From the NCBI GenBank assembly GCA_038736355.1, contig JAVYML010000001.1, forward strand, positions 244,908 to 308,907: 64,000 nt of DNA, read 5' to 3'. Position numbers and translations under genes: made by a program. The first letter of the stretch is position 1, and each line of letters opens with the position of its first letter. Below are positions 14,721 through 25,426 of the stretch, one piece after another. Under the pieces are notes generated by a model that was given only the letters and a program-made list of their open reading frames with translations, ran no database searches and was not told where the DNA came from. This DNA comes from Candidatus Hadarchaeales archaeon (GTDB lineage Archaea > Hadarchaeota > Hadarchaeia > Hadarchaeales > WYZ-LMO6).

Positions 14721-17678
14721 ATGAGACCGGCTTCCAAATCCTATCATCCGCCCGAGGCGGAGAAGAGGATACAGAAATGGTGGGAGGAGAGGGGAATCTA
14801 CGGGAAAGTCAAGGAGAAAGTTAAGGATAGAAGACCCTGGTATTTCCTGGACGGTCCTCCCTACGCCAGCGGTTCCATCCACCTGGGAACGGCGTGGAAC
14901 AAGATCCTGAAGGACGTCTTCTTGAGGTACTGGACTATGAGGGGGCTGAACGTCAGAAGACAACCCGGCTGGGACTGCCACGGTCTTCCCATTGAGGTGA
15001 TGGTGGAGGAGAGACTGGGGATCCGATCCAAGAAGGATATAGAAAAGAAAATCGGGGTGGAGAAGTTCATAGAAGAATGCAAGCGCTGGGCGCTGGAACA
15101 CGTAAGGCTGATGACCGAACAGTTCAAGCGCCTAGGAGTCTGGATGGACTGGGATGAGCCCTACCTCACCCTAACCAACCAATACATAGAATCCGCCTGG
15201 TGGACCCTGAAGAAAGCCCATGAGAAGGGTCTGCTCCGTAAGGATCTGAGGGTGATCCACTGGTGTCCCAGATGCGAGACCGCCCTGGCCGAACACGAAG
15301 TGAGGGGTGAATACTACGAGGTAAAAGATCCTTCCCTCTACGCCAAGTTCAAGCTGAAAGGAGAGGAGGGCTATCTGCTGATCTGGACCACCACCCCCTG
15401 GACCCTTCCCGCCAACTTAGCCGTATGTGTCCACCCGGAGTTTATCTATGCTAAGGTGAAGGTTGGGGAGGAAATCTATTTCCTCGCCGAGGGCACCCTC
15501 CCACGCGTGGCGAAGGAGTTGGGCTGGGAGGAATACAGGATCTTGGAGAGGAGGGAGGGAAAGGAGCTGGAAGGGTTGCGCTACGAACATCCCTTACTGG
15601 AGGAGGTACCCAAGCAAAGGGAATTCGTGGAGCATCACAGGGTGATCTGTGGGGAACATGTGGTACTGGAGGAAGGAACGGGATGCGTCCATACCGCTCC
15701 GGGTTTTGGGGAAGAGGATTTCCTGGTAGGAGGGAAGTATGGCCTTCCCGTCTTTAGCCCCGTGGGTCCGGATGGAAGGTTCACGGAGGAAGCTGGAAAA
15801 TATGCTGGATTGGGGGTGAAAGAAGCCGATCCCCTCGTGCTGGAGGATCTGAAGAAGAAGGGGCTCCTGGTGAAGGGAGGAACGGTAATCCACTCCTATC
15901 CCCACTGCTGGAGGTGCAAGACCCCCTTGATCTTCAGGGCCACGGAACAATGGTTCCTGAAGGTCTCGGAGATCAAACCCCTTCTGCTGGAAAAGAACGA
16001 ACGAGTGGAATGGGTTCCAGCTTGGGTAAGGGAAAGGTATGTGAACGGTGTCCTCTCGGTGGGGGACTGGTGCCTCTCCAGACAGAGGTACTGGGGGATT
16101 CCCCTTCCCCTCTGGATCTGCTCCTCCTGCGGCAACTCCGTGCTGGTGGGGAGTCTGGAGGAGCTGAGGAGGCTTACCGGAGAAAAAGGTGAGCTGGACC
16201 TCCATCGTTCCGACCTCGATAAACTCAAGGGAAAGTGCCAGGTATGCGGGGGGGAGATGGAAAGGGTGCCGGATGTCCTGGATGTCTGGTTCGACTCCAG
16301 CATCGCCTCCTGGGCCAGCTTGGGCTTCCCCCAGCAGAAGGAGGCCTTCGAGAGACTTTGGCCCAGCGCCTTCATCACCGAGGGGGAAGACCAAGTGACC
16401 AAATGGTTCTATGCCCAGCAGGTCTCCTCCATCCTGGCCTTTGGGGAGATCCCCTATCGGAGGGTGCTCACCCACGGTTTTGCCCTGGATGCGCAGGGAA
16501 GGAAGATGTCCAAATCTTTGGGAAACGTGATCGATCCCGTGGAAGTGGCGGAGGAGCATGGGGCCGATGTGCTCAGGCTCTACATCCTCTCCGCCAATCC
16601 TCCCTGGGAGGACCTGAAGTTCAACCTCACCGAGCTGAAACAGGTGGGAAGGGCCCTCAACGTCCTCTGGAATGTCCATGTCTTCGCCACCACCTACATG
16701 GCTTTGGATTCCTTCGACCCAAGTCGCCACACGCTTCGGTCCCTCTTCCCCCACCTCCTACCCGAGGACAAATGGATGCTTTCGAGGGTTCAAGGTCTTG
16801 TGGAAGAGGTGACGAAAGCCCTAGAGGGATGTGAAGTACACCGGGCCGTGAGGGCCCTCCTCTTCTTCGTGCTGGAGGACTTGAGCAGGTGGTATGTGAG
16901 GGCCATCCGCCCGCGCACCTGGGTGGAAAAGGAACATCCCTCCAAGCTTGCCGCCTATGCCGTCCTCTATTATTCCCTGGAGCGCCTTCTCAGGTTGCTC
17001 GCTCCCTTCGCCCCCCATCTCTGCGAGGTCATGTATGCTGATCTCAGGATGGGCGATTCACCGGAAAGCGTGCACCTGCTCGATTGGCCCCTGCCCGAAG
17101 GGGAACTGAGGGATCAAAGGCTGGAGAGGGCCATGGAACTCGCGAGGATCCTCACGGAAGAGGTGGCGGAGGCCAGACAGAAGGCCGGACTCAAGCTCAG
17201 GTGGCCGGTGGCGGAGGTGGTGGTGAGGCTTCCGGAGGAAGAGCTGGAGCTCCTCCACGGTCTGGAAGACTTCCTGAGGGAGAGGTTCAACTGTAAGAGG
17301 CTCCTCCTGCTGGAAAGGAAGATGGAAAGACCCCAAGGGGATTACTCCATTGTTGAGACGGAGAACAGGGAGGTGGCGGTGAGCAGGATCCTTTCACCGG
17401 AACTGAGGGGGGAGGCGCTCGCGAGGGAGCTCGTGAGACGCCTCCAAGTGATGAGGAAGGAAATGGGTCTGGAGATGGAGGAAAGGGTGGAAGCTGAACT
17501 GGGAATGGGAGAGGAGGATGCCAAGGCTCTGGAGCCCCACCTCGAGTACTTGAAGAGGGAAGTGAGGATAGAGGGACTGAGGATCTGCAGAAGGGAAGAG
17601 GTGGGGAAGGAGGGCTATGTGAAGGACTGGGAGATAGAGGGAGAAACCTTCAGGCTCCTTCTGAGGAGAAGGGGCTAA
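14721..17678 (+). CDS. ileS: isoleucyl-tRNA synthetase
   Basis: Class I aminoacyl-tRNA synthetase of 985 residues, charging tRNA-Ile and editing valine. HIGH-type signature GSIHLGTAWN (His54), KMSKS at 595-599 (GRKMSKSLGNVIDP), and the CP1 editing domain with TTTPWTLPANLAV and GTGCVHTAPGFGEEDF. A zinc-type cluster WRCKTP and CSSCG...CQVCGG is present in the insert. The C-terminal anticodon-binding domain is of the archaeal/eukaryal type. TTTTAATCC at 14691-14699 is a likely TATA box about 26 bases before the ATG, suggesting a leaderless message. Confidence 0.97.
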   Translation: MRPASKSYHPPEAEKRIQKWWEERGIYGKVKEKVKDRRPWYFLDGPPYASGSIHLGTAWNKILKDVFLRYWTMRGLNVRRQPGWDCHGLPIEVMVEERLGIRSKKDIEKKIGVEKFIEECKRWALEHVRLMTEQFKRLGVWMDWDEPYLTLTNQYIESAWWTLKKAHEKGLLRKDLRVIHWCPRCETALAEHEVRGEYYEVKDPSLYAKFKLKGEEGYLLIWTTTPWTLPANLAVCVHPEFIYAKVKVGEEIYFLAEGTLPRVAKELGWEEYRILERREGKELEGLRYEHPLLEEVPKQREFVEHHRVICGEHVVLEEGTGCVHTAPGFGEEDFLVGGKYGLPVFSPVGPDGRFTEEAGKYAGLGVKEADPLVLEDLKKKGLLVKGGTVIHSYPHCWRCKTPLIFRATEQWFLKVSEIKPLLLEKNERVEWVPAWVRERYVNGVLSVGDWCLSRQRYWGIPLPLWICSSCGNSVLVGSLEELRRLTGEKGELDLHRSDLDKLKGKCQVCGGEMERVPDVLDVWFDSSIASWASLGFPQQKEAFERLWPSAFITEGEDQVTKWFYAQQVSSILAFGEIPYRRVLTHGFALDAQGRKMSKSLGNVIDPVEVAEEHGADVLRLYILSANPPWEDLKFNLTELKQVGRALNVLWNVHVFATTYMALDSFDPSRHTLRSLFPHLLPEDKWMLSRVQGLVEEVTKALEGCEVHRAVRALLFFVLEDLSRWYVRAIRPRTWVEKEHPSKLAAYAVLYYSLERLLRLLAPFAPHLCEVMYADLRMGDSPESVHLLDWPLPEGELRDQRLERAMELARILTEEVAEARQKAGLKLRWPVAEVVVRLPEEELELLHGLEDFLRERFNCKRLLLLERKMERPQGDYSIVETENREVAVSRILSPELRGEALARELVRRLQVMRKEMGLEMEERVEAELGMGEEDAKALEPHLEYLKREVRIEGLRICRREEVGKEGYVKDWEIEGETFRLLLRRRG

Positions 17679-18352
17679 CTCCCCATCCTGCGCTGCCTTC
17701 TCTCGAACTCTTCCAAGCACCTCTCCAAATCCTCCCTGGTGAAATCGGGCCAGTACTTGTCCACGAAGAAGAGCTCGGCGTATGCTGCCTGGTAGAGGAG
17801 GAAGTTGGAGAGCCTGTGCTCCTTTCCGGTCCTGATCACCATGTCCACGGGCCTCTTCACCCATAGATACCTCTCCAACACTTCCCTCGTTAGCCTGGCC
17901 GGTCTGCTCGCCATGAGCCTTTTCAAGGCGGAGAAGAGCTCATCTTGGGCGCTGTAGGCTATCAGGAAGTTCAGATGCCTACAGTTGTAAGACTTGGTGG
18001 CCTCCACCACCCTCCTCACCCCCGTCAGGAGAAAGCCGGGCAACCTATTCAACCTCCCCAAAACCCTCACCCTCACCTCCTTCTCATGGATCGTGCGATC
18101 CTTTTCCACCCTATGCAAACACTGATTCATCAACCTGAAGAGATGGCGGAGTTCCTCCGCCGGTCTTCTCTCCAAGTTCTCCAAGGAAAGGGTGTAAACG
18201 GTAACCTCTGGGATATCTTCCTCCAGACACCAATGGAGAAAATCTTCAAGGACCCGTACTCCCCTTTCGTGACCCTGCCAAACCTCCAGACCATGTTCCC
18301 TCGCCCATCTCCTGTTCCCATCGGGTATCAGACCCAAATGGTGGGGCCTCAT
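17675..18352 (-). CDS. uppS: cis-prenyltransferase (polyprenyl diphosphate synthase)
   Basis: Builds a long-chain cis-polyprenyl diphosphate, the lipid carrier for glycan assembly. With the start at MRPHHLGLIPDGNRRWARE the protein is 225 residues. The catalytic Asp lies in IPDGNRRWA; LSLENLERRPAEE, SYNCRHLNFLIAYSAQDEL and RTGKEHRLSNFLLYQAAYAEL are family motifs. The frame extends upstream to 18643, but that part lies inside the suhB-like gene and is not prenyltransferase-like; GGGGGGAGG precedes the ATG at 18352. It is probably co-transcribed with the upstream phosphatase. Confidence 0.93.
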   Translation of the reverse strand: MRPHHLGLIPDGNRRWAREHGLEVWQGHERGVRVLEDFLHWCLEEDIPEVTVYTLSLENLERRPAEELRHLFRLMNQCLHRVEKDRTIHEKEVRVRVLGRLNRLPGFLLTGVRRVVEATKSYNCRHLNFLIAYSAQDELFSALKRLMASRPARLTREVLERYLWVKRPVDMVIRTGKEHRLSNFLLYQAAYAELFFVDKYWPDFTREDLERCLEEFERRQRRMGS

Positions 18353-18375
18353 CCTCCCCCCTTTTCCTTCCCCTT

Positions 18376-19161
18376 TTAAAGACCTTCCAGCAATCCGAGA
18401 AGCTGGGAATGCAGCTTTCCGTTGGAAAAGAGCAGATCCATCCTCTCCGGTCTCCACCTTCCCCCTCGGAAATCCGTGACCTTCCCACCCGCCTCTTCCA
18501 CCAAGAGGACGGAAGCTGCCACGTCCCAAGGCTGGAGGGCGGTGGCAGCATAGGCATCCCCCTTTCCGCATGCCACCCAGGCCGCTTCCACCCCCGCCGA
18601 ACCCAGCTTCCTCAAATCCCTCACCCTCGGATAGAGGGTACACACGATTTTCCCCGTTCTTTCCCTGTTCGTCTCGCTCCCCTCACAGGAATATACGTAG
18701 GCCCTTTCCAACTCCTCCACTCCGGACACATGGATGGGGATCCTCTCCCCCGTTTCCCTTCTTTCCAAGAAGGCCCCCTTTCCTCTCTCGGCCAGAAAGA
18801 GCTCCTGGAGCACGGGGAGGAAGGTTATCCCCAGGATTGGCTCCTCCCTCCTCAAAAGAGCTAAAGTAATACAGAAAAGGGGGTTGCCGGAAGCGAAGTT
18901 CGTGGTCCCGTCCAAGGGGTCCACCACCCAAGTGAACTCCGATCCCCTCTCCACCAGACCCGTTTCCTCCGTCAGAAGGTTGTGGTCGGGATAGGAGGAG
19001 GAAAGCCCTTCCACCAGTACCCTATCCGACTTGAGGTCATATGGGGTGGTAAGACCCTTGGCCGTTCCTCGCATTCCCAGAAACCCACTCCTACGAAAAC
19101 CTTCCCTCAGCACCTCCCCCGCCTTCAAAACCAAGGGGATCACGTTCTCCAGTTCGGACAT
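18376..19161 (-). CDS. inositol monophosphatase / fructose-1,6-bisphosphatase family
   Basis: 261-residue Mg-dependent sugar or inositol phosphatase of the SuhB/IMPase superfamily. Metal-binding motif WVVDPLDGTTNFASGNPLF at about 77-95, an upstream EETG (VTEETGLVERG for the first metal Glu), and the C-terminal WDVAASVLLVEEAGGKVTDF. Archaeal members often act on both inositol-1-phosphate and fructose-1,6-bisphosphate; which applies here is not visible. 23 bases separate it from the prenyltransferase. Confidence 0.9.
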   Translation of the reverse strand: MSELENVIPLVLKAGEVLREGFRRSGFLGMRGTAKGLTTPYDLKSDRVLVEGLSSSYPDHNLLTEETGLVERGSEFTWVVDPLDGTTNFASGNPLFCITLALLRREEPILGITFLPVLQELFLAERGKGAFLERRETGERIPIHVSGVEELERAYVYSCEGSETNRERTGKIVCTLYPRVRDLRKLGSAGVEAAWVACGKGDAYAATALQPWDVAASVLLVEEAGGKVTDFRGGRWRPERMDLLFSNGKLHSQLLGLLEGL

Positions 19162-19191
19162 CGGAAAAAATGGGAAACCTAGCCTTTATCC

Positions 19192-20478
19192 TCACAGGTC
19201 CGAGGAGAGGACCCTCTCCCTCAGCTTGGAGAGGATTTCCCTTACCGTAGTAGAGGGAAGCTTCCCTTCCCTCTTCACCCCTTCCTTTCCCACCGTGAGG
19301 AGCACACCCATCCTCACCCTCCTGGGACCCTTCAACCCGGCGAACCTCAAATCCTTCTCGGAGAGTTCATAATCCAGTTCCTCCTTCCCCCTCCCTTCCG
19401 CCACCGGAACCACCACCACCTCCTCCCCCAACTGGTTGTACCTGTCGGAAGAGACCACCAAGGCCAACCTCTCCCCTGCAGGGGTTTTTACCCTCACCAG
19501 TTCTCCCTGCCTGATTTGGTCTCCTGCCATCACCCTTTTCTCCCCCTCTTCTATGAAAGCCTTCTCTTCCGCCAACCTCGACCCCGCCAGCTCCTTCTCC
19601 TCCCTTCCCAGCAAGGAGACTCTTTTCACCCTTTCCCCCTTCACCTCCTTGACATCGTAAGATCCCAACAACCTCACGTGCACCCTCTTCTCCTCTATAG
19701 CCCGCAACGCTTCTTCCACCCTCTTTTCCCCCTCCCTTCCCTCGAAATCCACGAAGAACACGTATTCTCCCAACACCCCCCTGTCCGGCCTGGACTCTAT
19801 CCTCGTGAGGTTGATTCCCCTCGAAGAAAACTCCCGCAGGATTTCCTGGAGAATGCCCGGCCTATCCTCAGCCAGTTCCAACAGCACGGAGGTTTTCACG
19901 GGTCTGATGCCTGGAAGGGGCTGCCGACCCAAAACGAAGAATCTGGTGAAACTAAGGCCCTGGTCGTGAATGTTCCTCCTCACTATCTTCAACCCGTAAA
20001 TCTTCGCGGCCCTTTCCCCCGCCACAGCCGCCACCGAGGGATCGGAAGCCGCCAGTTCTGCGGCTGCTGCCGTGCTGGGCATCTCCCTCAACTCCGCGTG
20101 GGGTAGATTCTCCCTCAAGTATCTCCTGCAATGGGAGAGGGCCTGATGGTGGGAAGCCACCACCTTTATTTTCCCCAGCTCCCCGTGCCTGGCCAAGAGG
20201 TGATGGACAACGGGCATCCTGATCTCCCTCAACACCCTCAGTCCGTGATATCTCCGGAGGAGATCCAACACGAAGGGAACCTCCCCCTCCACCGAATCCT
20301 CCACTGGCACCACCCCCAAAGCCTCTGGGTGGGTGAAGACATACTCAAAAACCTCTGCCACGGGAAAGAGGTACCTCCTAGGGGCTCCCCTGGGAAGGAG
20401 GTCGGTGAGGGCTTCCAAAGCCCTCTCGGTATGGGTTCCCTCCGGACCCAGCAACGCCACTTCCTTAGGTGGACTCAA
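19192..20478 (-). CDS. pheA: prephenate dehydratase with ACT domain and C-terminal PemK/MazF-like domain
   Basis: Converts prephenate to phenylpyruvate in phenylalanine synthesis. The N-terminal dehydratase (about 1-185) starts VALLGPEGTHTERA and carries the catalytic TRF motif at 178-180 (SFTRFFVLG). An ACT domain follows (about 195-275) with the ESRP Phe-binding segment (IESRPDRG). After a charged linker, residues about 318-425 look like a PemK/MazF fold: GELVRVKTPAGERLALVVSS, then NQLGEEVVVVPVAEG and RRVRMGVLLTVGKEGV. I know of no described fusion of this type, so the last third may be regulatory or RNA-active. The frame is continuous. Confidence 0.85.
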   Translation of the reverse strand: MSPPKEVALLGPEGTHTERALEALTDLLPRGAPRRYLFPVAEVFEYVFTHPEALGVVPVEDSVEGEVPFVLDLLRRYHGLRVLREIRMPVVHHLLARHGELGKIKVVASHHQALSHCRRYLRENLPHAELREMPSTAAAAELAASDPSVAAVAGERAAKIYGLKIVRRNIHDQGLSFTRFFVLGRQPLPGIRPVKTSVLLELAEDRPGILQEILREFSSRGINLTRIESRPDRGVLGEYVFFVDFEGREGEKRVEEALRAIEEKRVHVRLLGSYDVKEVKGERVKRVSLLGREEKELAGSRLAEEKAFIEEGEKRVMAGDQIRQGELVRVKTPAGERLALVVSSDRYNQLGEEVVVVPVAEGRGKEELDYELSEKDLRFAGLKGPRRVRMGVLLTVGKEGVKREGKLPSTTVREILSKLRERVLSSDL

Positions 20479-20505
20479 CCTCTCCCCAACCCTTTCCCAC
20501 CCCGA

Positions 20506-20868
20506 TTAAACCCTTTTGCCCTCCAAGAAACGCCTGTTCTCCTCATCCAGCTCCAAGATGAGGGCTAAGGCCTCTTCCTCCGTGAGGAACTTGGAAGGCC
20601 CCTTCCCCTTGGGGCATTTCACGGTCTCCACCACCCCAAAGAGCCTGCAGGGAAGGAAGCGCACAGGCCAGATAGAACATCTTCCCCCTTCCGCGTAGGG
20701 GCATCTCTCCCCCACCTTTCCCACCCTTTCTTCCCTTCCCCTCTCCTTCAACCATCTTCTCACCCTTTCCTCCTCCAGAGGAGTACGGCTGGGCCAAAAA
20801 CAACACTCGGTACATCCCTCCTCGCATTCCATCGAAGGGATCTTAGCCCAGATCTCCTCCAGCCCCAT
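20506..20868 (-). CDS. YkgJ-type CxxCxxCC iron/zinc-binding domain protein
   Basis: About 120 residues. Cysteine-rich motifs ECEEGCTECCFWP near the N-terminus and GERCPYAEGGRCSIWPVRFLPCRLFG match the CxxCxxCC (PF03692) family of putative metal chelators. The frame opens at 20952, but the first 28 residues are not family-like and MGLEEIWAKIPS at 20868 is the better start. The function of the family is unknown. Confidence 0.7.
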   Translation of the reverse strand: MGLEEIWAKIPSMECEEGCTECCFWPSRTPLEEERVRRWLKERGREERVGKVGERCPYAEGGRCSIWPVRFLPCRLFGVVETVKCPKGKGPSKFLTEEEALALILELDEENRRFLEGKRV

Positions 20869-20951
20869 TCCTCCACCCAAAACGCGATTGATTGAGGGAA
20901 AAATCGGTCTTGAACGGCTTAAAGCAATCCTTAGACTCTTCGTCACACCCA

Positions 20952-21467
20952 CTATTCCTTGAAGACCTCATAACAGACGAGTTCGTCCAGTTCCTTCCTG
21001 TATTTGGGTAGGGGCTCATCCGCAGGATAACCAACGGGGAGGAGTGCCACCACCTTGTACTTTTCGGGTATACCAAGAATCTTCCTCACCTCTTCTTGGG
21101 AAAAGGAACCAATCCAGCAGGTCCCCAGTCCCTCTTGTACGGCCGCCAAAGTGAGATGGTCCACTACGATGGCCACATCCACGGCATAGGAAGGAACCCC
21201 GCACCTCATCACCCTTTCAGGATCCAAAGCCACGGCCGCTATCACCACGGGGGCCTCTGCCACGAACTCCTGTCCGTAGGCGGCCTCCGCCAGCTTTTTC
21301 CTTCGCTCCGGGTCCCTAACCACCACCAACTTCCAGGGTTGAAGGTTCTTAGCGGAGGGGGCGAGCCTGGCTGCCTCCAGCATCCTCCTCAAGGCTTCTT
21401 CCGGAACTGGCTCCTGACGATAGGCCCTCACACTCCTTCGCTCTCTTATGGCCGAATATACGTCCAT
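20952..21467 (-). CDS. nitroreductase-family flavoprotein
   Basis: 171-residue FMN oxidoreductase. The FMN-phosphate site is RERRSVRAYRQEPV at 8-21, with PSAKNLQPWKLVVVRD and GLGTCWIGSFSQEEVRKILGIP later in the chain, all typical of the family. The substrate is unknown. It is transcribed in the same direction as the YkgJ-like gene, 84 bases downstream. Confidence 0.88.
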   Translation of the reverse strand: MDVYSAIRERRSVRAYRQEPVPEEALRRMLEAARLAPSAKNLQPWKLVVVRDPERRKKLAEAAYGQEFVAEAPVVIAAVALDPERVMRCGVPSYAVDVAIVVDHLTLAAVQEGLGTCWIGSFSQEEVRKILGIPEKYKVVALLPVGYPADEPLPKYRKELDELVCYEVFKE

Positions 21468-22053: not shown

Positions 22054-22611
22054 ATGCACCTCATCGTTGCCCTCACAGGCTCCAGCGGAGTGGTTTATGG
22101 AGTGCGCTTCTTAGAGGTTTGCAGGGAGTTGGGAATAGAAACGGACCTCATCCTCTCGGAGGCTGGAAAGGAAATCCTGAGGCTGGAGATGGGAAAGGAA
22201 CCGGAAGAAGTGGAAAAACTGGCCAGCAGGAAATACGGAGAAAATGAACTCACCTCTCCCCTCTCCAGTGGCTCCTACGAGGTGGACGGAATGGTGATCG
22301 TCCCCTGCAGCATGAAGACCTTGGCCTGTGTGGCGAATGGGATTTCAGGAAACCTCATCACCAGGGCTGCTGATGTCATGCTCAAGCAGGGAAAGCCCCT
22401 CGTTTTGGTTCCACGTGAGACCCCCCTCAGCCTCATCCACTTAGAAAACATGCTAAAGGCGAAAAGGGCAGGCGCGGTGGTTCTTCCTGCCTGTCCTGCC
22501 TTCTATCATGGGGCAAAAAACCTCTCGGACTTGGTGGACTTCATCGTGGGCAAAATCCTAGATGTGCTGGGGATAAAGCACCGTCTCTATCGGAGATGGG
22601 GGGGAGGATGA
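22054..22611 (+). CDS. ubiX: flavin prenyltransferase
   Basis: Makes prenylated FMN, the cofactor of UbiD decarboxylases, from FMN and dimethylallyl phosphate. 185 residues starting MHLIVALTGSSGVVYGVRFLE (FMN-binding GSSG). Conserved motifs VDGMVIVPCSMKTLACVANG, NLITRAADVMLKQGKPLVLV and PRETPLSLIHLENM are present. It shares an ATGA overlap with the ubiD-like gene, so cofactor maker and user are co-translated. Confidence 0.95.
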   Translation: MHLIVALTGSSGVVYGVRFLEVCRELGIETDLILSEAGKEILRLEMGKEPEEVEKLASRKYGENELTSPLSSGSYEVDGMVIVPCSMKTLACVANGISGNLITRAADVMLKQGKPLVLVPRETPLSLIHLENMLKAKRAGAVVLPACPAFYHGAKNLSDLVDFIVGKILDVLGIKHRLYRRWGGG

Positions 22612-23849
22612 GCCTCAGGGAATTCGTGGAAAGGCTGGAAAGAAAAGGACTCCTCCTCAAGGTTAAAAGGGAGGTGAGTCCCCGATACGAAATCACCTCC
22701 TTACTCCTGAAGGCGGGGGAAAAACCGGTTAAGTTCGAGAAGGTGAAGGGATCCCCTTTTCCCCTAGTCTCCAACGTTTGTGCTTCTAGGGAGCTGGTGG
22801 CCCTAGCCTTGGGAGTTAAACCTTCCGATCTCCTGCGCACCCTACTGAAGGCCATAGAAAATCCTAAAGAACCGGAGAGGATGGAGGCGAGGGAATACAG
22901 GGAACTTCCACCCGACTTGAGAAAACTACCCATCCTTCTCCACTACCCCTTCGACGGCGGGAAGTACATCACGGGAGGAATAGTGGTCGCTGAGGATCCA
23001 GAGCTGGGAATAAACCTATCCTTCCACAGGATGATGGTGGTGGGGAAAGACAGGGTGGTGATGAGGATCCTTCCAAGACACTTCCACACCTTCCTGGAGA
23101 GGGGACTGAAGGAATTCGCGGTGTGTATTGGATGTGATGTGCATGTCCTCCTCTCAGCCGCCACCTCCTTAGAGCTCGGAAGGAGTGAACTTGGAATGGC
23201 CAGCGCCCTCCGGAAGACGAAGGTGGTGGAGCTGGGAGGACTCCTCGTACCGGAAGCGGAAATGGTGATGATCATGGAAATGACAGGAGAAGAAAGGGAA
23301 GAAGGACCTTTCCTCGATCTCACGGGAACTCTGGATATGGTGAGGAAACAGAAAGTGGCTAGGGTGAAGAAGCTTTTTGTAAAAGAAGAAGCCCTTTACC
23401 ATGCCATCCTCCCAGCCGGACCGGAACACAAGATCCTGATGGGTATGCCCAGGGAACCCACCATCTTCAGGGAGGTGAACAAGGTATGTGAATGCAAGGA
23501 TGTCTACCTCACACCTGGAGGGTGCTCTTGGCTGCATGCGGTGGTGAGTATAAAGAAAAGGAAACCGGACGATGGAAAAAAAGCGATAGAGGCGGCCTTT
23601 AGGGGGCACTCCTCCCTCAAACACGTTTGGGTGGTGGACGAAGACATAAACCCAAGGAACCCGGAAGAGGTGGAGTGGGCCATGGCCACGCGCTTCCAGG
23701 GTGACCGGGGAATGGTGGTGAAAAAGGAAAGGGGTTCCTCCTTGGACCCCTCCGCCGATCCCGAGACGGGCCTCACCACGAAGGTGGGCTTCGACCTCAC
23801 CATCCCCCCCGACCGTCCCCGCTCTTCTTTCCTCCGCCCTAGGAGGTGA
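22608..23849 (+). CDS. UbiD-family decarboxylase, probable anhydromevalonate phosphate decarboxylase
   Basis: 413-residue prFMN-dependent decarboxylase. The start at ATG 22608 (MSLREFVERL) overlaps the ubiX stop; an in-frame ATG at 22596 is possible. Family motifs are PFPLVSNVCASRELVALALG, the central NLSFHRMMVVGKDRV region, SLELGRSELGMASALRK and HVWVVDEDINPRNPEEVEWA. Because genes for both AcnX subunits follow at once, it most likely acts in the archaeal mevalonate pathway, turning trans-anhydromevalonate 5-phosphate into isopentenyl phosphate. Other aromatic or enoic substrates cannot be excluded from sequence alone. Confidence 0.88.
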   Translation: MSLREFVERLERKGLLLKVKREVSPRYEITSLLLKAGEKPVKFEKVKGSPFPLVSNVCASRELVALALGVKPSDLLRTLLKAIENPKEPERMEAREYRELPPDLRKLPILLHYPFDGGKYITGGIVVAEDPELGINLSFHRMMVVGKDRVVMRILPRHFHTFLERGLKEFAVCIGCDVHVLLSAATSLELGRSELGMASALRKTKVVELGGLLVPEAEMVMIMEMTGEEREEGPFLDLTGTLDMVRKQKVARVKKLFVKEEALYHAILPAGPEHKILMGMPREPTIFREVNKVCECKDVYLTPGGCSWLHAVVSIKKRKPDDGKKAIEAAFRGHSSLKHVWVVDEDINPRNPEEVEWAMATRFQGDRGMVVKKERGSSLDPSADPETGLTTKVGFDLTIPPDRPRSSFLRPRR

Positions 23850-23852
23850 GGG

Positions 23853-25031
23853 ATGCATCTCACGAAAGAACAGGAAAGGATGCTCGATGGGGAGGAGGGA
23901 GAGATAGTGGAGAAGATGTTCCGCCTCCTCGTCAAGATGGGTGACCTCTATCAGGCCGATAGGATGATCCCCGTTTCTTCATGCCAGGTCTCTGGGGTCT
24001 CCTATAAATCCGTGGGGGAGCCCGGTCTGGAGTTCCTAGAGGATCTGGCAGCCAAGGGGGCTAGGGTAAGGGTGAGAACCACCCTTAACCCTGCAGGTCT
24101 GGACCTCGAAGAATGGAGGGCGATGGGTTTCCCCGAGGACTTTGCGGAGAAACAACTCAGAATCCTCAAGGCCTTCGAAAGACTGGGAGCAGAACCCACC
24201 GTTACCTGCACCCCCTATTTGGCCGGTCTAGTACCCTCGAGGGGGGAACATCTGGCCTGGTCGGAATCCTCGGCCGTGGTCTTCTCGAACTCGGTGCTGG
24301 GTGCTAGGACGAACAGGGAAGGTGGGCCCTCTGCCCTGGCGGCAGCCATCTGTGGACTCACCCCAAGATATGGGCTCCACTTAGAGGAAAACCGGTGGCC
24401 CAGCCTAGTGGTGGAAGTGGAAGGAGAGCTGGAGGGTCCCTCGGACTTCAGTGCCTTGGGCTATTGGGTGGGGAGGGAAGTGGGCGGAGGGATACCCTAT
24501 TTCAGGGGGATAAAAAGGGCCGGGATCGAAGAGCTGAAAGCCTTGGGGGCAGCCATGGCAGCTTCAGGGGCGGTGGCCCTCTTCCATGTGGAGGGAATCA
24601 CGCCCGAGGCCGATCCAGAAAAAACCAAGGGACTGGAAAGGATGAGGGTGGGGAGGGAAGAGGTGGGGAAAGTCTATGAGGAATTGAGCACGGGGGGAGA
24701 ACCGGAACTGGTGGTATTGGGCTGTCCCCACGCTTCTTTGGAAGAAATCTCCCGCCTTCTTCCCCTATTGGGGAAAAATCCAAAGCCCTTCTGGATCTGT
24801 ACCAGCAGGAGGGTCAAGGAAAAAGCCATGCGCTCCGGGCTTGGGAAAAAGGTGGAGGAGGCTGGTGGAAGAATGGTGGCGGATACCTGTGCGGTCGTTT
24901 CCCCTCTGGAAAAACTCGGCTTCAAGACGGTGGGGGTGGATTCCGCCAAGGCTGCCCACTACCTTCCTTCCCTCTGCCGGGTGGAAGTGATCTTTTCCCC
25001 TCCAGGGGAGCTCCTGAGGGGGGGAAGATGA
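23853..25031 (+). CDS. phosphomevalonate dehydratase large subunit (AcnX, DUF521)
   Basis: 392-residue aconitase-X catalytic subunit. Starts MHLTKEQERMLDGEEGEIVE and has conserved segments PVSSCQVSGVSYKSVGEPGLEF's cysteine, TCTPYLAGLVPSRGEHLAWS and SNSVLGARTNREGGPSALA, which in this family include Fe-S and substrate residues. Dehydrates mevalonate 5-phosphate to trans-anhydromevalonate 5-phosphate in the archaeal pathway. Three bases separate it from the decarboxylase, and its stop overlaps the small subunit start. AcnX homologs elsewhere act on hydroxyproline derivatives, but the gene context favours the mevalonate role. Confidence 0.9.
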   Translation: MHLTKEQERMLDGEEGEIVEKMFRLLVKMGDLYQADRMIPVSSCQVSGVSYKSVGEPGLEFLEDLAAKGARVRVRTTLNPAGLDLEEWRAMGFPEDFAEKQLRILKAFERLGAEPTVTCTPYLAGLVPSRGEHLAWSESSAVVFSNSVLGARTNREGGPSALAAAICGLTPRYGLHLEENRWPSLVVEVEGELEGPSDFSALGYWVGREVGGGIPYFRGIKRAGIEELKALGAAMAASGAVALFHVEGITPEADPEKTKGLERMRVGREEVGKVYEELSTGGEPELVVLGCPHASLEEISRLLPLLGKNPKPFWICTSRRVKEKAMRSGLGKKVEEAGGRMVADTCAVVSPLEKLGFKTVGVDSAKAAHYLPSLCRVEVIFSPPGELLRGGR

Positions 25032-25426
25032 GGGGGAGAACCGTTAATCCGGGTAAGGCAAGGGGGGAAGCTCTAGTCTCCCGTTCCCCTCTCAGTTTTT
25101 ACGGAGGGGTGGATCCGAAAACGGGAATGGTGGTGGAGAGGGGGCACGAACTCGAGGGTAAATCCGTGAAAGGGAAGATCCTGATCTTCCCCCGAGGGAA
25201 GGGGTCCACGGTGGGGTCCTATGTGATCTATGCCCTGAAGAAAAATGGGGTAGCCCCCTTAGCCATCGTCAACGAGGAAACGGAACCCATCGTGGCCGCC
25301 GGGGTCATCCTGGCGGACATACCCTGCGTGGACAGGGTAGACCTGAGTCTGCTGGAAACCGGAGACCTAGTGGAGGTGGACGCAGACCAGGGGAAAGTGG
25401 AGATCCTCGAGAAACGAAAGTCATAG
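25028..25426 (+). CDS. phosphomevalonate dehydratase small subunit (DUF126)
   Basis: 132 residues, the swivelling domain subunit of AcnX. The conserved serine lies in PRGKGSTVGSYVIYALKKNG at about 57-76, and VNEETEPIVAAGVILADIPC follows. It begins at an ATGA overlap with the large subunit and closes the four-gene cluster. Domain and neighbour agree, so the identity is firm at the family level. Confidence 0.92.
   Translation: MRGRTVNPGKARGEALVSRSPLSFYGGVDPKTGMVVERGHELEGKSVKGKILIFPRGKGSTVGSYVIYALKKNGVAPLAIVNEETEPIVAAGVILADIPCVDRVDLSLLETGDLVEVDADQGKVEILEKRKS

Follow-up and report, generated by a model that had tools for sequence, protein, structure and literature searches.

Monofunctional prephenate dehydratases (PheA; NCBIfam PRK11898) combine a prephenate dehydratase (PDT) domain (PF00800) with an ACT domain (PF01842), and the known members stop after ACT. 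Fusions of archaeal prephenate dehydratase with chorismate mutase and prephenate dehydrogenase are known (PMC11237513); there the partner enzymes come from the same pathway, and that paper has no mention of a PemK or toxin partner. The second group of interest is the MazF/PemK toxins (PF02452). The Kid/CcdB/PemK/MazF superfamily was said to have no function other than that of toxins, and Myxococcus xanthus has a solitary, active MazF RNase to which a regulator binds (PMC2701414). The catalytic pair of MazF is Arg25/Thr48 in the Bacillus proteins, with Lys or Ser as substitutes in some; mutation of either Arg25 or Thr48 strongly reduces activity, and Bacillus T48A is severely impaired (PMC7354611).

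The window analysed here is a stretch of 64,000 nucleotides from a Candidatus Hadarchaeales archaeon, and it carries one open frame that is related to both groups (Table 1). Residues 1-280 are an ordinary member of the PDT-ACT family with TRF and ESRP motifs, but the frame runs about 150 residues further. It is like the archaeal fusions in joining a partner to prephenate dehydratase. The added part is like MazF/PemK toxins in fold, profile and catalytic Arg, and it differs from them by a lost Thr, a shorter beta1-beta2 loop, the lack of an antitoxin and the attached enzyme. As in M. xanthus, a MazF fold without toxin-antitoxin (TA) partner seems to be recruited to another cell process; the M. 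xanthus protein keeps its regulator-bound RNase activity, whereas the present domain has lost the Thr and has a biosynthetic enzyme as its partner. Searches of open-access papers returned no report of a PDT-ACT-MazF fusion.

Fused frame and its MazF-like domain

The PDT, ACT and PemK/MazF profiles all lie in one reading frame, each above its Pfam cut-off, and the front part is a prephenate dehydratase by NCBIfam as well. In the full-length model PDT and ACT are confident, the long helix of residues 292-317 has low confidence and the tail is poorly modelled; prephenate dehydratases with bound Phe are among the best fold matches of this model. Judged by its domains, the PheA part would perform the ordinary dehydration with Phe feedback of a PDT plus ACT protein. 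A chorismate mutase domain is encoded elsewhere in the genome.

Table 1. Features of the fused gene, in positions of the window
Feature	Position	Strand	Basis
Whole fused open frame	19192..20478	-	428 codons, TTG start, without internal stop
Prephenate dehydratase domain, residues 7-186	19921..20460	-	Pfam PF00800, E=3.8e-46, 157.6 bits; TRF motif at 178-180
ACT domain, residues 202-262	19693..19875	-	Pfam PF01842, E=2.8e-15, 56.2 bits; ESRP motif at 228-231
Linker, residues 281-316	19531..19638	-	helix 292-317 predicted at low confidence; dN/dS 0.59
Putative internal ribosome-binding site AAGAGGGGGAGAAAAGGGTG, ahead of ATG 19530 (residue 317)	19531..19550	-	pairing energy
MazF-fold domain, residues 317-428	19195..19530	-	PF02452; Foldseek to MazF structures; dN/dS 0.16

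The PemK_toxin profile PF02452 scored 37.3 bits on residues 333-421 of the full protein (E=3.3e-9; the cut-off is 23.1 bits), and it matched the tail alone with E=5.1e-10. Nothing else in the 1.27-Mb genome matches PF02452, even at E<=10, which we rank as the second best hint of a non-toxin use. When residues 313-428 were modelled separately (AlphaFold, mean pLDDT 81), MazF chains made up 50 of the 50 best PDB matches by Foldseek, with TM about 0.75 overall and B. subtilis MazF 4me7 at the top (E=1.2e-7, TM 0.76). Profile and structure search thus agree on the continuous PDT-ACT to PemK/MazF fusion proposed by a sequence-only reading of this DNA, and the structure prediction that it had suggested for the C-terminal part returned a MazF fold. 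That reading had set the MazF-like segment directly after ACT; the segment is present in the extension, but starts near residue 317-330, past a linker of about 40 residues.

In the alignment the catalytic Arg is retained as R337 in the window's genome (G000) and as Arg in a genome of the same genus (G026), with Lys in a genome of another genus (G024). The Thr position holds Ala (A360), Val and Ala, respectively, and Thr is lost in all three subfamily members. The catalytic residues, which had been named earlier as a point to check, are therefore half preserved in the fusion. There is no Ser or Thr adjoining the Ala or Val in the window's genus; the G024 protein has a Ser directly after the Ala, and for this reason it is less certain as inactive, because an active site shifted by one position is possible. 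The beta1-beta2 loop of the fusion has 7 residues fewer than that of the G024 copy. Since the catalytic Thr is replaced and this loop is short, MazF-type RNA cleavage by the domain of the fusion is unlikely.

This result bears on the earlier suggestion of translation control by Phe through an RNase-like fold, in which the MazF-like domain would cut RNA at scarce (or abundant) Phe with ACT as the switch. Such an enzyme could draw on the MazF fold, on R337 as one of the two catalytic residues and on the ESRP motif kept in ACT, but it would have to work with Ala or Val in place of Thr (the change to Ala severely damages the Bacillus T48A mutant; PMC7354611), without a neighbouring Ser/Thr in the window's genus, with a shortened beta1-beta2 loop and with its antitoxin missing. 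We consider it very improbable, and the suggestion is unsupported. Because one of the two residues needed for RNA cutting is lost, a recruited accessory domain is probable and a Phe-switched toxin is not. A domesticated structural role, the other option raised earlier, would be the better fit of the two.

Relatives and genomic neighbourhood

Among 28 genomes of the phylum, close relatives of the MazF-like domain were restricted to the window's family, namely G000, G026 and G024. The domain family has three members, and the complete fused sequence is represented once (n=1, G000). In G026 the two parts, pheA and MazF-like, are each cut short by a contig boundary (end of C39, start of C46), with about 104 nt missing between them if the length is that of G000, and from residue 281 to the end the frame is the same as in G000 without gap. 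In G024 the pheA gene (about 310 aa) stops at TAA, and 38 nt on there is a separate MazF-like ORF of 125 aa in another frame. The search for the same fusion in relatives, which had been advised, gave in G026 two parts that agree with a fusion across a contig break, and in G024 separate genes. The pheA and MazF-like sequences adjoin in two genomes and the third is consistent with adjacency. The other pheA neighbours of the window sit on other contigs in G024; because G024 keeps the pair while the remaining neighbours lie elsewhere, we regard the pheA-MazF pairing as the conserved feature and the fusion as a genus-level variant.

In another genome of the same genus (G025), the gene is unassembled because contigs C57 and C101 stop on its two sides. 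The G026 and G025 assemblies are thus both interrupted within or across the pheA-MazF gene, and strain variation is a possible reason.

It could also be that pheA and the MazF-like gene are truly separate and that a base error in the G000 genome joins them. The different frames of the two genes in G024 would agree with such an error, as would the breaks in both same-genus assemblies, by which a second complete fused sequence is lacking. However, with the G026 frame matching that of G000 from residue 281 onwards, the error would be confined to the roughly 10 codons that follow the end of ACT (LGSY, 271-274) and precede residue 281; homopolymers there reach 5 bases at most, and we judge such an error quite improbable.

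PheA of the sister family ends just after ACT, at about LGSYPKRF, without a MazF-like gene there; the ORF mostly next after it is presumably NAD-synthetase-like, as named from sequence reading. A common extension of archaeal PheA, which had been given as the case against the fusion, is ruled out by these ends. With the narrow profile of the family itself, none of the 80 PheA loci taken from genome contigs showed a MazF-like gene at a distance of up to about 5 kb from pheA. No relatives turned up in viral contigs, plasmids and phage records, and a mobile origin was rejected on this ground. A general MazF-like phage family matches the domain weakly, and defence-system models gave no match to the fusion.

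No antitoxin gene (RHH/AbrB) adjoins the MazF-like part in G000, where its neighbours are pheA on the upstream side and a gene of the inositol-monophosphatase family on the downstream side. In G024 there is none in the 38 nt between pheA and the MazF-like gene, and on the downstream side the contig ends after about 210 nt. An ordinary TA module was rejected for the fusion, because an antitoxin gene is not adjacent and the MazE/AbrB-type matches of the G000 genome lie away from the fusion. An ordinary RHH antitoxin and MazF pair with both catalytic Arg and Thr is present in a sister-family genome (G006, L109:223-812, +), unrelated to pheA.

The fusion stands in a minus-strand run (17675-21467) of nitroreductase, CxxCxxCC protein, fusion, inositol-monophosphatase-family and undecaprenyl-diphosphate-synthase-family genes. 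The order is the same in G026, and G024 has those genes scattered over contigs. On the plus strand, 22054-25426 encodes by Pfam a UbiX-like flavoprotein, a UbiD-like decarboxylase, and the large part and swivel part of aconitase X; such a cluster is known to encode the archaeal variant of the mevalonate pathway, with phosphomevalonate dehydratase and UbiD-type decarboxylase.

Linker, possible internal start and proposed role

Between G000 and G026, dN/dS was 0.07 for PDT, 0 for the ACT part (51 codons compared), 0.16 for the MazF-like part and 0.59 for the linker, with 0.96 in the first 21 codons of the linker. The value of 0.16 indicates purifying selection on the MazF-like domain, which is therefore a working protein part, and the linker sequence appears nearly free of constraint. 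The linker has 31 substitutions in 108 nt and no indels, with the frame open in both species. A neutral simulation kept it open in 52% of runs; because about half of neutral runs also keep the frame, the open linker does not prove that the fusion itself is selected. The ATG at residue 317 shows SD-like pairing of -11.1 kcal/mol in G000, within the strongest 5% of the internal ATGs tested, and of -11.8 kcal/mol in G026. Measured against the common RQG motif, it sits at most one codon from the start of the free G024 gene. As the linker drifts and this ATG with its ribosome-binding site matches the start of the separate gene, fused and free MazF-like products may both be made. An antitoxin-like peptide in the linker had no profile support, with one short conserved stretch only.

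These results suit, in part, two genes that came into one frame by chance, where no stop separates the genes, the cell tolerates the fusion and the functional, independently acting MazF-like protein starts from the ATG at residue 317. The strong ribosome-binding site in both species at the position of the G024 start, the near-neutral linker and the simulation would all be expected then, but without a stop, ribosomes translating pheA must make the fusion unless translation ends otherwise, and the frame has stayed open without indel in two species, though this last point is weak evidence. We think this explanation somewhat unlikely.

We favour, with confidence about evenly balanced, that a solitary, degenerate MazF-fold protein is kept as a non-nuclease partner of the Phe-regulated prephenate dehydratase and is joined to PheA in one genus. 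On this view the gene that follows pheA codes for a MazF-like protein with neither antitoxin nor RNase activity, and it would have been retained as an accessory partner of PheA with a dimerising, regulatory or ligand/RNA-binding role, adding an oligomer or binding contact. In one genus the partner would be a separate protein encoded next to PheA, and in the other it would form the tail of PheA, the two making one polypeptide because no stop lies between them; the internal start may still yield some free MazF-like protein. We infer the accessory function because catalytic residues are absent and the genes are paired. The fold, the dN/dS of the domain, the G024 pairing, the Thr loss in three of three members and the lack of an adjacent antitoxin support this accessory reading, while the three members with only one full fused sequence, the Ser beside Ala in G024 and the little constraint on the linker weigh against it. 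That the toxin-derived MazF fold is now dedicated to phenylalanine biosynthesis and acts, depending on Phe, on RNA or the PheA oligomer, so that an amino-acid sensor would be coupled to a toxin fold that has been domesticated, we hold to be unlikely. If the accessory reading is true, selection maintains a former toxin fold as a metabolic accessory next to a core biosynthetic enzyme and, in one genus, as part of it; with fused and separate forms available in sister genera, the idea can be tested directly.

The stretch RLAEEKAFI (residues 302-310; 19575-19549, minus strand) is identical in G000 and G026 amid the drifting linker. Its coding DNA, GCTTTCATA, is AT-rich within a GC-rich strand, and the stretch is possibly a helix contact or a promoter element.
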